Positions 28,658 to 34,073 of a stretch of DNA of 64,000 bases are shown here, in pieces (position 1 is the first letter of the stretch; every line of letters begins with the position of its first letter). A model generated the notes under the pieces. It searched no databases. It was not told the DNA's origin and worked only from the letters and a program-made list of their open reading frames with translations. The stretch is from assembly GCA_002841315.1 (NCBI GenBank), contig PHEW01000001.1:372001-436000 (forward strand), written 5' to 3'. This stretch comes from Actinobacteria bacterium HGW-Actinobacteria-4 (GTDB lineage: Bacteria > Actinomycetota > Actinomycetes > Actinomycetales > Demequinaceae). The position numbers were made by a program, and so were the translations under genes.

Positions 28658-29701
28658 GATGCCCTGCCGTCTCCTCCTGCGACCCGCGCGCCGCGGCCAA
28701 CGATGCGCGACGTCGCCGCATTGGCGCGCGTGGGGATCAAAACGGTGTCTCGAGTCCTCAACAATGAGCCCAACGTTTCCCCTGAGACCGCAGAGCGCGT
28801 GCACCGCGCCGCAGCGCAGTTGCACTACGAGATCAACTCGGTTGCGGGCAACCTCAGGCGGAGCGGTAACTCGACCAAGACGGTGGGGCTCGTGGTCGGT
28901 CACGTTGCCAACCCCTTCTCCGGTCACATCCATGCCGGTGTCGAAGAAGTGCTCTACCCGCAGGGATATTCAGTCCTGGCCGCCAGCCTCGACGACGACG
29001 CGGAACGCGAGCAAAGGCTTGTACGCGAGTTCCTGCGCCGTCGTGTTGATGGCCTCATCCTCACCACGATCTCTGCGGAACAGACCTATCTCCTTCCCGA
29101 ACTCTCGCGCGGATTGCCTGTGGTCTTCGTTGACCGCGAACCATGCGGCGTGACGGCCGACGCCGTGGTGGGAGACAACGCGGGCGGCGCGCGAGAGGCG
29201 ACCGCACACCTGATCGCGCACGGCCACCGACGCATCGCCTGCCTGGCGGACCGCGATTCCCTCAGCACATCGGTGCACCGAGTTGAGGGCTATCGCCTTG
29301 CGCTCAAAGAGGCGGGGTTGCCCTACGAACCCGAGCTTGTGACCACGAACATCAACTCGGCGGACGCTGCGCGTGCGGCTGTCACGGCGTTGCTCGCGCG
29401 CGCTGAGCCACCCACTGCGATCTTCACCGCTCAGAACCTCATCACGATCGGCGGCATCCACGCTCTTCGTGATGCGGGTTTGCAGCACACGGTGGCACTC
29501 ATGTCCTTCGACGACTTCACGTTGGCGGACGCCCTGGATCCGGGAATCTCCTGCGTCACGCAAGACCCACGTTCCATGGGTGCGCTCGCTGGGCGCAAGC
29601 TGCTCGAGCGCCTCGGTGGCGACGACTCCGTGGCCTCGACCATCGTCTCGCCCACCACTCTCATCGCGCGCGGATCAGGGGAGATCCCCGCTCCGCGCTA
29701 G
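28652..29701 (+). CDS. LacI-family transcriptional repressor
   Basis: A 349-residue regulator with an N-terminal helix-turn-helix (TMRDVAALARVGIKTVSRVLN) and hinge, then a sugar-binding domain (about 60-335). It is divergent from the sugar ABC operon and carries operators in the shared region, so it most likely represses that operon until the sugar arrives. The ATG at 28652 has GAGGTG 8 nt upstream; a GTG at 28643 is in frame. Its stop shares CTAG with the convergent SulP gene. Confidence 0.93.
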   Translation: MSDALPSPPATRAPRPTMRDVAALARVGIKTVSRVLNNEPNVSPETAERVHRAAAQLHYEINSVAGNLRRSGNSTKTVGLVVGHVANPFSGHIHAGVEEVLYPQGYSVLAASLDDDAEREQRLVREFLRRRVDGLILTTISAEQTYLLPELSRGLPVVFVDREPCGVTADAVVGDNAGGAREATAHLIAHGHRRIACLADRDSLSTSVHRVEGYRLALKEAGLPYEPELVTTNINSADAARAAVTALLARAEPPTAIFTAQNLITIGGIHALRDAGLQHTVALMSFDDFTLADALDPGISCVTQDPRSMGALAGRKLLERLGGDDSVASTIVSPTTLIARGSGEIPAPR

Positions 29702-31290
29702 TGGCCCGCACCCATGTGGCCGGCTAGGCGATCGTGGCGTTTGAGACTGTCCTCGTTCAGACCTTGAATGTCCACCGTGGTGCCGTGGCGCGCGTACTTA
29801 GTGACCACTGAGTCCAGCGCCGCTACCGTCGATGCGTCCCACAGGTGCGAGCCGTGCATGTCGATAATCACGTTCTCTGGGTCACCCGCATAGTCGAACT
29901 GGAAGAAGAGGTCGTTCGAGCTTGCGAAGAACAGCTCGCCCGTGACCGTGTAGCGGCGGGTGTTGCCCTCGATGGGACCGCCTTCAACATTCGCAAGGTG
30001 GGCCACGCGGCGCGCGAACATCACCATGGCGAGCAGCACGCCGGCGATGACGCCGTACGCGAGGTTGTGGGTCACGACAACGACAACCACAGTGGTGAGC
30101 ATCACTGCAGTCTCAGAGCGGGGCATGCGCTTCAGTGTGTTGAGTTGGACGGAGTGCCAGTCGAACGTAGCCCAGGACACATAGATCATGACGGCGACGA
30201 GCGCAGCCATAGGAATCATGGCCACTACCGGCCCTAGCGTGAGAATGAGCACCAACAGGAAGACCCCGGCCATGAAGGTTGACAAGCGAGTGCGAGCGCG
30301 GCCGGCCTTGACGTTGATCATGGTCTGGCCGATCATCGCGCAACCGCCCATACCACCAAAGAAGCCAACGATGATGTTGGAGGCGCCTTGGCCCCAAGCC
30401 TCGCGCGTCTTGTCCGAGTGAGTGTCGGTGATGTCGTCAACCAGCTTCGCGGTCATGAGCGACTCGAGCAGTCCCACCATCGCGATTCCCAGCGCGAACG
30501 GGAACACGAGCTGGAGCGTGTCAAGGTTCCACGGGACGTCGGGGAAGAAGAGCAGGGGCAAGCCTTCGGGCAGTTCGCCTTCGTCGCCCACGGTGGGGAC
30601 GGCGATTGCGAGGATCGCCGTGATGGTCGTAAGAACGACGATTGCAACCAGCGGCGCCGGCACAACAGTGGTGAGCTTCGGCAGGAACATGATGATGAGC
30701 AGCGCGAGTGCGACCAGCGGGTAGACCATCCAGGTCACGCCGGTCAGGTGAGGGAACTGCGCCATGAAGATGAGGATCGCGAGCGAGTTGACGAAGCCCA
30801 CCATGACGGAGCGCGGAATGAATCGCATCAGCTTCGCGACACCGAGCACGGCGAAGATCACCTGGATCATGCCACCCGTGATCACTGCGGCCACCAAGTA
30901 GTCGAGGCCGTGGTCGCGGGCCAGCGGCGCGACGATGAGCGCGACGGCGGCTGTGGCTGCCGAGATCATCGCGGGGCGTCCGCCCAAGAACGCGATGCTG
31001 ACCGCCATCACGAAACTCGCGAAAAGTCCCACGCGTGGGTCCACTCCCGCGATGAGCGAGAAGGCGATCGCCTCGGGAATGAGGGCGAGCGCCACCACCA
31101 AACCAGACAACACCTCGGTACGGGCCACTCGCAGGTTGAACCACGCGGGACGGCGCCACGTGCGCGGGTCCCAGATGGTGCCCCATGCGTTCGTCACTTC
31201 CACCACGCCCGTGGGTGTGCGCGTGATCTCGGGGTCCGAGATGTAGTCGGGGCGGTGTTCGCGCTGAGGAGCGCCGATGGGGGCAGTCAT
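29698..31290 (-). CDS. SulP-family anion transporter with STAS domain
   Basis: A 530-residue SLC26/SulP transporter: about twelve or more membrane segments (residues ~60-430) and a C-terminal STAS domain (about 435-530) with [19 protein letters not shown]. Substrates of the family include sulfate, bicarbonate and dicarboxylates. Divergence from a persulfide-metabolism gene makes a sulfur oxyanion attractive, but this is inference. The ATG at 31290 is used; an in-frame TTG at 31302 is possible. Confidence 0.88.
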
Positions 31291-31589
31291 GCGTGTGTCC
31301 AATCAGGCACGCGCGCACAAGCGCGCAGGCGGTAGTTGCCGCGAACGGCGCAGGTCAGAGATCAAGCGCGCGTGCGCAAGCGCGGGTCGCCAGCAGGATT
31401 GCGGCAACTCATCGCGCGGCACAGTGCGGCGTGGAATCCGGGGATCGGCCAACGACGGCCAGGGACAACGGTACAGGCGATGTGCTCAGACGCCTAGGGG
31501 GCACCGGGCCTAGGGTGACCTTGTTCCCATGCGGGGGCGCGTTCCGGGGAGTAGCGTCAAACACAGGACAATACCCCTGGAGGTATGAT
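31291..31589. other. Divergent intergenic region between the SulP gene and the persulfide reductase gene
   Basis: About 300 bases without a convincing gene. Two GC-rich blocks with GCGCAC/AAGCGCG elements lie at about 31310-31390. It must hold promoters for both divergent genes. No clear sigma-70 pair is visible. The only strong signal is the palindrome at 31571-31586. Confidence 0.5.
31571..31586. promoter_or_regulatory. CsoR/CstR-type palindromic operator
   Basis: ATACCCCTGGAGGTAT has perfect outer arms ATACC/GGTAT and a C/G-rich core, matching the operator style of the CsoR/FrmR/CstR repressor family (ATACCCC...GGGGTAT). It overlaps the GGAGG ribosome site and ends 3 nt before the reductase ATG. 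The CstR subgroup senses persulfides, which fits the downstream gene. The regulator gene is not in this window. Confidence 0.55.
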
Positions 31590-34073
31590 ATGAAACTCGT
31601 GATCGTTGGCGGCGTGGCCGCCGGAGCATCCGTAGCGGCCCGTGCACGCAGGCTCGATGAAGGTGCTGAAATTGTGGTCCTCGAGCGAGGTCACCACGTT
31701 TCCTTCGCCAACTGCGGGCTGCCCTATCACGTGGGAGAGGTCATCAAGGATCGCTCACGGTTGTTGTTGCAGACCCCAGAGAGCCTGCGCGAGACGCTCA
31801 ACATCGACGTGCGCATCGCGAGCGAGGTCGTCAAGATCGACACCAAGAAGCGACAGGTGCACGTGCGCGAGGTCGATACGGGCAAGGAGTACACCGAGGG
31901 CTACGACAAGCTCGCGCTATGCCCCGGGGCCGAGCCTGTGCGCCCGCCTCTCCCCGGAATCGATCACCCGGCCGTGGATGTGCTCCGGCGCATCGGCGAC
32001 ATGGACCGCATCAAGGCACGAGTGGATGCAGCACTACGCGAACAGCGAGACGGCAAACGCGGTCCCGTGCGCGCGGTGGTGGTGGGTGCCGGGTACATCG
32101 GGCTGGAGATGGCCGAGAACCTTCATCACCGCGGGGTGCAGGTTGACGTTGTTGAACTGGCTGATCAGATTCTGCCCCCCGTGGACCGCGAGATCTCCGT
32201 GCCCGTTGAGCAGCACCTGCGCAGCAGGGGCGTCACCGTTCACTTGGGTACTGCCGCTGCGGCCTTCGCGCCGCTGGCCGACGACCGCGTGCGGGTCGAG
32301 CTCAAGAACTCCACCACCCTGGACGTGGACCTGGTGATTCTCGCCGTGGGCGTGCGCCCCAGCGTGGGGCTCGCCACGGACGCTGGGCTCACACTGGGTG
32401 AGCGCGGTGGCATCACGGTCGACACCCACATGCGGACATCGGATCCTCACATTTGGGCAGCGGGTGACGCCGTGGAGACTCCTCACCCCGTGCTGCCTGG
32501 CGCCCACCTCGCTCCGCTCGCAGGTCCGGCCAACCGGCAGGCGCGCGTGGCCGCCGAGAACATCTGCGGCCGCGACACCGAGTATGTCTCGACGCAAGGC
32601 ACCAGCATCGTCAAGGTGTTCGACATGGTCGCCGGCGGCACCGGCGCCACGCAGCGCCAACTCGACATGTTCGGCGTGCCTTACCGCGCGGCGCACCTGC
32701 ACCCGTCCGGCCACGCCGGGTATTACCCCGGCACGGCCTTGATGCACCTCAAGGTGCTCTTCTCGCCGGACGACGGCAGGCTGCTTGGCGCGCAAGCGTG
32801 CGGGTTCGACGGCGTGGACAAGCGACTCGACGTGCTTGCCATGGCGGTGCGCGCGGGCCTGACGGTGTACGACCTCGAGGACCAGGAGCTCGCATACGCC
32901 CCGCCATTCGGATCCGCGAAGGACCCCGTCAACATGGCCGGCTTTGTCGCGGCGAACGTGCTGCGTGGCGACCTCACGCTCTGGTACGCACAGGACTTCC
33001 CTGCGGCAACCGAAGGCGCTGACATCATCGACGTGCGCACGGCCGAAGAGTTCGAAGTGTGGCACATCCCCGGTGCACGCAACGTTCCGCTTGCTACGTT
33101 CCGCGAGGCGATTGCCGATTGGGATAAGGCCCAGCGCGTGCGCCTGTACTGCGCGGTCGGTTTCCGGTCCTACCTTGCGCACCGGATTCTGGTACAGCGC
33201 GGGTTTGCGGATGTCGCAACACTGTCCGGCGGATCGACGACCTTCCGCGCCACCCACGACATCGAGCCCGAGGCGTACGTCGCCATGCCACCCATCGAGT
33301 CGTATGCCGAGGCAGCCACAGTTGCCGCCGCCACGCTCGCCGGCGGCAACCTGATCGAGTTGGATTGCACTGGGCTCGCGTGCCCCGGACCAATCATGAA
33401 GCTCGCCGACGCCATCAAGGCGGCCAACGTTGGCGACGACGTCCGGGTCACCGTGTCAGACCCCGGGTTCGCGCTCGACGCTCCCGCTTGGGCCGCGAAG
33501 AACGGCCACCGCCTGGTGGACATCACTCCCGAAGGTCCGGGATACGTGGCGACTCTGCGCAAGGGAGCGATGAAGGCTGTGGCGACCACAGCATCGGCCG
33601 GTGTTCCCAAGACTTCCATGGTGGTGTTCTCCGGCGACCTCGACAAGGTGATCGCGGCGTTCATCATTGCCAACGGCGCAATTGCCATGGGTGAGGAGGT
33701 GTCGATGTTCTTCACGTTCTGGGGGCTCAACGCCCTTCGCAAGTCCAAGCCACCGCGTCGTCAGAAGAAGGTCATGGAGAAGATGTTTGGTGTCATGATG
33801 CCGCGCGGCGCGGAGAAGCTGACGCTGTCGCAGATGCACATGATGGGTGCCGGCACGGCAATGATCAAGGGCGTCATGAACAAGCACGCCGTTCCGCCAC
33901 TCGCACAGCTCATCCAGTCCGCACAAGACGGCGGCGCTCGGCTACTTGGGTGCACTATGACCATGGACCTGTTGGGCATCGCGCCGTCGGACCTGCTCGA
34001 CGGGGTCGAGCTCGCGGGCGTCGCGACGTTCCTTGGCGAGTCTCAGGAGTCTGGGACCACGCTGTTCATCTAG
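31590..34073 (+). CDS. Four-domain CoA-disulfide/persulfide reductase: Pyr_redox-rhodanese-TusA-DsrE
   Basis: An 827-residue fusion. Residues 1-~445 are an FAD/NAD(P)H CoA-disulfide reductase with VIVGGVAAGASVAARARR and redox Cys42 in SFANCGLPY. Residues ~470-560 are a rhodanese domain with Cys in RLYCAVGFRS. Residues ~590-660 are a TusA/SirA domain with CTGLACPGP. Residues ~675-827 are a DsrE/F-like domain with Cys in LLGCTMTMD. All four predicted active cysteines are present, so sulfane sulfur could be relayed within one chain. The likely role is persulfide or polysulfide handling. GGAGG lies 6 nt before the ATG. Confidence 0.9.
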   Translation: MKLVIVGGVAAGASVAARARRLDEGAEIVVLERGHHVSFANCGLPYHVGEVIKDRSRLLLQTPESLRETLNIDVRIASEVVKIDTKKRQVHVREVDTGKEYTEGYDKLALCPGAEPVRPPLPGIDHPAVDVLRRIGDMDRIKARVDAALREQRDGKRGPVRAVVVGAGYIGLEMAENLHHRGVQVDVVELADQILPPVDREISVPVEQHLRSRGVTVHLGTAAAAFAPLADDRVRVELKNSTTLDVDLVILAVGVRPSVGLATDAGLTLGERGGITVDTHMRTSDPHIWAAGDAVETPHPVLPGAHLAPLAGPANRQARVAAENICGRDTEYVSTQGTSIVKVFDMVAGGTGATQRQLDMFGVPYRAAHLHPSGHAGYYPGTALMHLKVLFSPDDGRLLGAQACGFDGVDKRLDVLAMAVRAGLTVYDLEDQELAYAPPFGSAKDPVNMAGFVAANVLRGDLTLWYAQDFPAATEGADIIDVRTAEEFEVWHIPGARNVPLATFREAIADWDKAQRVRLYCAVGFRSYLAHRILVQRGFADVATLSGGSTTFRATHDIEPEAYVAMPPIESYAEAATVAAATLAGGNLIELDCTGLACPGPIMKLADAIKAANVGDDVRVTVSDPGFALDAPAWAAKNGHRLVDITPEGPGYVATLRKGAMKAVATTASAGVPKTSMVVFSGDLDKVIAAFIIANGAIAMGEEVSMFFTFWGLNALRKSKPPRRQKKVMEKMFGVMMPRGAEKLTLSQMHMMGAGTAMIKGVMNKHAVPPLAQLIQSAQDGGARLLGCTMTMDLLGIAPSDLLDGVELAGVATFLGESQESGTTLFI

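Follow-up and report, generated by a model that had tools for sequence, protein, structure and literature searches.

A gene in the window, the 64,000-nucleotide stretch of Demequinaceae DNA analysed here, probably encodes a persulfide reductase fusion with a promoter that would be gated by hypoxia-type DevR activation and by CstR persulfide derepression. The four-domain architecture of the enzyme is already known; what merits testing is the dual promoter. The reading frame of the fusion is nested in a longer mechanical open reading frame (31293-34073), and the features of the gene and its upstream region are as follows.

31515-31528, plus strand: DevR/DosR/OsdR-like box GTGACCTTGTTCCC (G000:C1:403515-403528), at -75 from the ATG and at the -35 position of the inferred promoter
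31552-31557, plus strand: putative -10 element TAGCGT, at an offset of 37 bp from the start of the box
31571-31586, plus strand: predicted CstR-type operator ATACCCCTGGAGGTAT, fitting the published ATACCn6GGTAT
31579-31583, plus strand: Shine-Dalgarno sequence GGAGG within the operator, with 6 nt separating it from the ATG
31590-34073, plus strand: four-domain fusion gene, ATG at 31590 to TAG at 34073, 827 aa
31590-32942, plus strand: CoA-disulfide reductase (FAD/NAD) domain (TIGR03385 over aa 2-451), active-site Cys42 codon at 31713-31715
33012-33248, plus strand: rhodanese domain (PF00581, aa 475-553), Cys521 codon at 33150-33152
33354-33563, plus strand: TusA domain (PF01206, aa 589-658), Cys598 codon at 33381-33383 (in CPGP)
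33609-34067, plus strand: DsrE2-type domain (PF13686, aa 674-826; PDB 3pnx), Cys788 codon at 33951-33953

The first-pass annotation had described a single polypeptide joining CoA-disulfide reductase, rhodanese, TusA and DsrE-like domains, each with its expected cysteine, and this description is borne out. Pfam gives the order Pyr_redox_2 (1-298), Pyr_redox_dim (340-441), Rhodanese (475-553), TusA (589-658) and DrsE_2 (674-826), the last at 184.6 bits, and Cys42, Cys521, Cys598 and Cys788 are each invariant in 69 of 69 aligned proteins, picked from 82 distinct proteins of at least 790 aa. The fusion is homologous to the TIGR03385 CoA-disulfide reductase and is not filed as an equivalog, scoring 445.5 bits over aa 2-451 against a cut-off of 578.8 bits. 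The cut-off of the DsrE2 equivalog NF047629 (210 bits) is missed as well, with 76.6 bits over aa 676-827. The best PDB relatives are the Shewanella NADH-dependent persulfide reductase (3nta), the B. anthracis CoADR-RHD (3icr) and the E. faecalis CoA-persulfide reductase (8a56); these chains have 565-588 residues and cover the first 550-555 residues of the fusion, while the DsrE end matches 3pnx. As in the CoADR-rhodanese persulfide reductases (Npsr, CoADR-RHD, CoAPR), a CoADR core with its active-site Cys is followed by a rhodanese with its active-site Cys; Cys42 and Cys521 of the fusion correspond to C42 and C508, the two catalytic cysteines of E. faecalis CoAPR in the available text of PMC9405070.

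A different direction of catalysis can be envisaged, in which the fusion works toward sulfur mobilisation or oxidation, taking thiosulfate or tetrathionate via TusA/DsrE while the reductase domain keeps CoA reduced. The archaeal TusA and DsrE3A, which react with tetrathionate and pass on thiosulfate (available text of PMC4175335), would fit such a role, as would the greater diamide sensitivity of B. fragilis without the fusion (available text of PMC6158253). However, the catalytic core is most like persulfide reductases, and the paralogue behind the same site is also a CoADR-rhodanese, so that we regard mobilisation as unlikely and retain persulfide reduction as the preferred reading.

The predicted structure of the fusion has a mean pLDDT of 84.0 and a pTM of 0.66, with low-confidence stretches at 561-585 and 662-670 joining TusA and DsrE2, and in this model the two domains are most likely extra carriers on flexible tethers. 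A rigid or fixed internal channel was considered and dropped, as both linkers are of low confidence and neither a channel nor a transfer order follows from them. The complete intramolecular persulfide channel that had earlier been singled out as special can therefore not be upheld. In addition, B. fragilis BF638R_0572 shares all four domains and their order (CoA-disulfide reductase, rhodanese, TusA and DsrE/DsrF/DsrH-like; available text of PMC6158253), and the fusion belongs with this published type; the architecture is moreover found in several phyla, and the notion that the fusion is unusual was abandoned on these grounds. The repressor of BF638R_0572 differs, being the adjacent MarR-type BmoR, and no CstR or DevR input is described in the available text of that paper.

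The nearest named matches of the fusion are from Demequina, which is the basis for placing the window in that genus. Proteins from Clostridia, Cloacimonadota, KSB1 and other phyla are down to 44-48% identity with the fusion, suggesting that the four-domain architecture is old or widely exchanged. Among 47 genomes of the family, a hand tally gave 32 with a full-length match in one frame, two with the match in two pieces (G013 and G034), eight with the two-domain type only and five with none. The genome of the window has in addition a two-domain CoADR-rhodanese paralogue (G000:C1:39476). This paralogue is a closer counterpart than the fusion of E. faecalis CoAPR, which is encoded in a cst-like operon as a CstR-controlled CoADR-rhodanese, reduces CoA persulfide through its two catalytic cysteines and, unlike the fusion, is described in the available text of PMC9405070 with no mention of TusA or DsrE.

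A palindrome overlapping the ribosome site had been noted before, and we find it to be imperfect (6 of 8 base pairs matching), covering the GGAGG and ending 3 bp before the ATG of the fusion. With up to three mismatches allowed, ATACCCCTGGAGGTAT has one match in the window; dinucleotide shuffles gave a mean of 0.08, with at least one match in 7 of 100. Its assignment to the CstR type is likewise supported, since it fits the 16-bp site ATACCn6GGTAT of S. coelicolor ScCsoR, a CsoR-like sulfane-sulfur sensor (available text of PMC7533328), so that the fusion gene has the ScCsoR/CstR-type site that defines such a regulon. ScCsoR represses its own gene and a rhodanese gene; the remaining targets given in the available text of PMC7533328, a persulfide dioxygenase and a sulfite transporter, belong to one cluster, whereas here the target is a distant four-domain reductase.

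In the whole genome the pattern ATACCN6GGTAT occurs five times and its reversed control not at all. Four of the five sites precede the fusion gene, a cstR gene (39 bp before it), the two-domain paralogue (37 bp before it and about 2 kb from cstR) and a rhodanese lipoprotein gene (about 41 bp before its likely ATG). The fifth site (C14:20198; L013:5199-5214) lies between a KefB-like antiporter that has a TrkA-N domain and a large, repeat-rich, surface-like protein cut off by the contig end, and these are not sulfur genes. Three N3-N5 sites (C1:219781, C4:46913 and C11:71018) were set aside as chance or coding, judged by flanking sequence alone.

The window holds no PF02583 gene, in agreement with the earlier statement that no cstR is nearby, and a distant regulator had consequently been proposed. 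Absence of any CsoR/CstR homologue from the genome had been named as grounds for giving up this proposal, and a search for homologues lacking copper ligands had been suggested. That search returned two PF02583 genes elsewhere in the genome, one encoding a protein without the copper-ligand His, so that the possibility of a genome without a regulator was dropped. This gene, the cstR mentioned above (G000:C1:37218-37487), lies on the same contig about 366 kb away and encodes 89 aa with both sensor cysteines kept and Gly at the position of the copper-ligand His; a PF02583 domain with two conserved cysteines and no copper-ligand His is what defines a CstR here. The second protein (C4:2860-3075) keeps the His, in AHLKGC. 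Its gene, the copper-type CsoR (L002:1399-1746, minus strand, in the G000:C4:2860 region), adjoins a CcdA-like membrane protein, a glutaredoxin-like protein and a ribbon-helix/PIN-like pair, all named by eye.

Across the 47 family genomes there are 219 ATACCN6GGTAT sites and 4 matches to the reversed control. One or more sites are present in each of the 43 genomes that match PF02583, and three of the four without such a match have none; the remaining one, G036, is 85% complete and has four sites. Because the CstR-like gene itself sits behind the same type of site, and because these sites track PF02583 and sulfur genes across genomes, the distant regulator of the fusion gene is very likely this CstR-like protein, and in silico the earlier proposal is thus supported. 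A motif scan of 80 loci from named genomes for a CstR-like gene within them, which can miss others, found one (L087, Cellulomonas humilata).

The same site could instead belong to a copper-sensing CsoR or RicR, which would make the fusion gene part of copper stress. ATACCn6GGTAT does resemble the GtCsoR and RicR sites given in the available text of PMC7533328, and the His-bearing PF02583 protein could serve as such a sensor. However, no N6 site is listed near the gene of this protein, and most of the named targets in the genome are sulfur genes. Furthermore, 38 of the 47 genomes have exactly one PF02583 match and all 38 have at least one site, yet the 25 of these 38 proteins that were examined (L132-L156) are all CstR-like with the His absent. 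We therefore hold the copper explanation to be very improbable, and continue with CstR as the predicted repressor.

Upstream of the orthologues the operator seems to be retained while its place varies. Of 30 Demequinaceae upstream regions, counting that of the window, 15 have the strict operator and 26 a relaxed form that allows one change seen in the data, with shuffle means of 0.01 and 0.0, respectively. These counts are not independent since the orthologues are related, and the relaxed operator, like the box pattern described below, was written after viewing the sequences. Depending on the group, the operator lies over the ribosome site, over the -10 element or, in distant genera, about 60-115 bp before the start codon. 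In 20 chosen stretches from five relatives (G002, G003, G004, G006 and G012), sites precede rhodanese lipoprotein and CoADR-rhodanese genes. In G004, G006 and G012 they also precede genes for thioredoxin, rhodanese, a YgaP-like membrane protein and a Pyr_redox_2 protein that is SQR-like by eye, and several sites in these three genomes have no clear target. A small membrane-like protein of 153-170 aa starts 9 bp from a CstR-type site in the same three genomes, all of them Demequina (L190:1035-1544, minus strand, in G012; L194:1084-1542, minus strand, in G006; L185:1033-1533, minus strand, in G004). It has no Pfam match in L190 and L194, the two scanned, and from its position we consider it a candidate new member of the persulfide regulon.

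A second regulatory element, on which the first-pass annotation was silent, is the DevR-type box spanning 31515-31528. The box pattern as first written occurs in 27 of the 30 Demequinaceae upstream regions, the window's among them (shuffle mean 0.14), and a slightly wider pattern in 28, leaving two without a box. The box in these 28 begins 73-84 bp ahead of the start codon, and all of them have a TANNNT hexamer at an offset of 37 (23 cases) or 38 (5 cases) from the box start and no other TANNNT at offsets 25-50; shuffles gave at most three TANNNT per offset. This spacing suggests an activator that sits over the -35 region, and transcription of the fusion gene would start near 31564. A sigma-70-like promoter was looked for upstream of the fusion gene and none was found, as expected if the activator replaces the -35 element.

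Beyond Demequina, 15 of the 29 rows among L060-L103 and L121 have a box plus hexamer that scores above zero with a shuffle fraction of at most 0.03, in a hand tally with no multiple-test correction. The Mycolicibacterium and Gordonia rows have neither box nor operator, and three Agromyces upstream regions have a box match and no operator. Orthologues from Bacillota MAGs (L110, L123, L124 and L126) have TGTGA/CGTGA-type palindromes, such as TGTGATTAAGTCAC, 36 bp from a TANNNT. These look CRP/FNR-like rather than like DevR boxes, although one of them, the clostridial row L126, passes the box-plus-hexamer scan.

Identification of the box as DevR type rests on its resemblance to OsdR/DevR sites in the available text of PMC5069765, where AGGGACCTTCGGCCCC is listed as a predicted OsdR site. 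The hypoxia regulons treated there likewise have palindromic GGG-CC boxes, and a CoA disulfide reductase belongs to one of their predicted target units; they differ in that no CstR co-control is described in that text. The genome of the window has a DevR/DevS-like pair to go with the promoter box. The best PDB match of the response regulator is DevR (3c3w, 5.7e-40), with AEKTVKN identical, and its gene is convergent with that of a kinase that matches DevS GAF structures and keeps HPP, the frame of which may begin beyond the stretch examined. Matches to this regulator at E 1e-50 are present in 45 of the 47 genomes, that is, in its own genome and 44 of 46 relatives.

A SulP-type transporter gene, named by eye, lies at 29698-31302 on the minus strand, divergent from the fusion gene. 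SulP homologues are present in 14 of the 110 orthologue loci scanned (L018-L127, the window's included), and a link to sulfate is therefore possible. The box stands in the intergenic region shared with this transporter, which, with the recurrence of SulP, would also suit a box that serves the transporter and not the fusion gene, while its presence upstream of the orthologue in G041 (L024), a 97% complete genome with no DevR match at E 1e-50, would suit another regulator. We think either case unlikely: a -10-like hexamer faces the fusion gene at a constant spacing in 28 of 28 promoters, an arrangement also seen in several other genera, and DevR matches are present in nearly all of the genomes, as given above. 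A DevR-type activator of the fusion gene remains the preferred reading.

Genome-wide, the box pattern has 25 matches and its control 14, a mild enrichment that is weak by itself. Matches lie near cydA (cytochrome bd), PFL-like, pyruvate:ferredoxin oxidoreductase (POR), MFS and COX3 genes, with several others inside genes, and seven of the 25 have a hexamer at 36-38 bp in one orientation, including those of the fusion gene, cydA and the PFL-like gene. No DevR-like box was found upstream of the two-domain paralogue in the window's genome. Paralogue starts were found in 25 of 30 loci, giving 25 rows from 24 genes (L146 equals L182); the operator is present in 22 rows, and one row reaches a score of at least 8 for box plus -10. 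Fourteen further rows (13 genes) score 3.9-7.5 and have half a box, GGACC or GGGACC, spaced in the same way, indicating that DevR-type input may extend beyond the four-domain gene.

The domains, cysteines, sites, conservation, spacing and both regulator genes are features of the sequence, and from them we infer enzymatic direction, signals, DNA binding and transfer order. By homology the fusion would be a CoADR-rhodanese-type reductase of persulfide or polysulfide that depends on NAD(P)H and FAD, in which the tethered TusA and DsrE2 would pass sulfur to or from the rhodanese and reductase cysteine pair, and sulfane sulfur would be reduced to H2S. The DevR(DosR)-type regulator, paired with the DevS-like GAF kinase, would activate from the -35 box under low oxygen, NO or H2S, while the CstR-type repressor would block the start region and the ribosome site, with persulfidation of its cysteines lifting the block. 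Its own gene, the two-domain CoADR-rhodanese and the rhodanese lipoprotein would be further targets of this CstR. Taken one step further, the single Demequina promoter could be an AND gate combining DevR/DevS-type activation (hypoxia, NO or H2S) with the release of CstR on persulfide. Cells would then make the fusion only when low oxygen coincides with a load of sulfane sulfur, and the operator would have shifted between the -10 element and the ribosome site across clades with the logic kept. We offer this gate tentatively, as a possible rather than a probable design.

A comparable pairing is found in B. licheniformis, where the CstR-like repressor YrkD and the two-component activator NreBC jointly control sulfur genes including dsrE, tusA and rhodanese homologues (available text of PMC9918477). 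Within that single cluster, YrkD and NreC bind at separate promoters, whereas here both predicted sites stand in one promoter and the activator is DevR-like. In a literature search mostly confined to papers outside subscription we noticed no work in which CstR and DevR together control a gene of this kind; one review, PMC6195638, contains both names in its available text.

The promoter would tie the hypoxia (DevR) response of actinobacteria to the homeostasis of reactive sulfur (CstR) in a compact form that can be tested. One study quoted in the available text of PMC9918477 reports H2S binding by the sensor kinase DosS, and through such binding a single promoter could respond to H2S as well as to its oxidised products.
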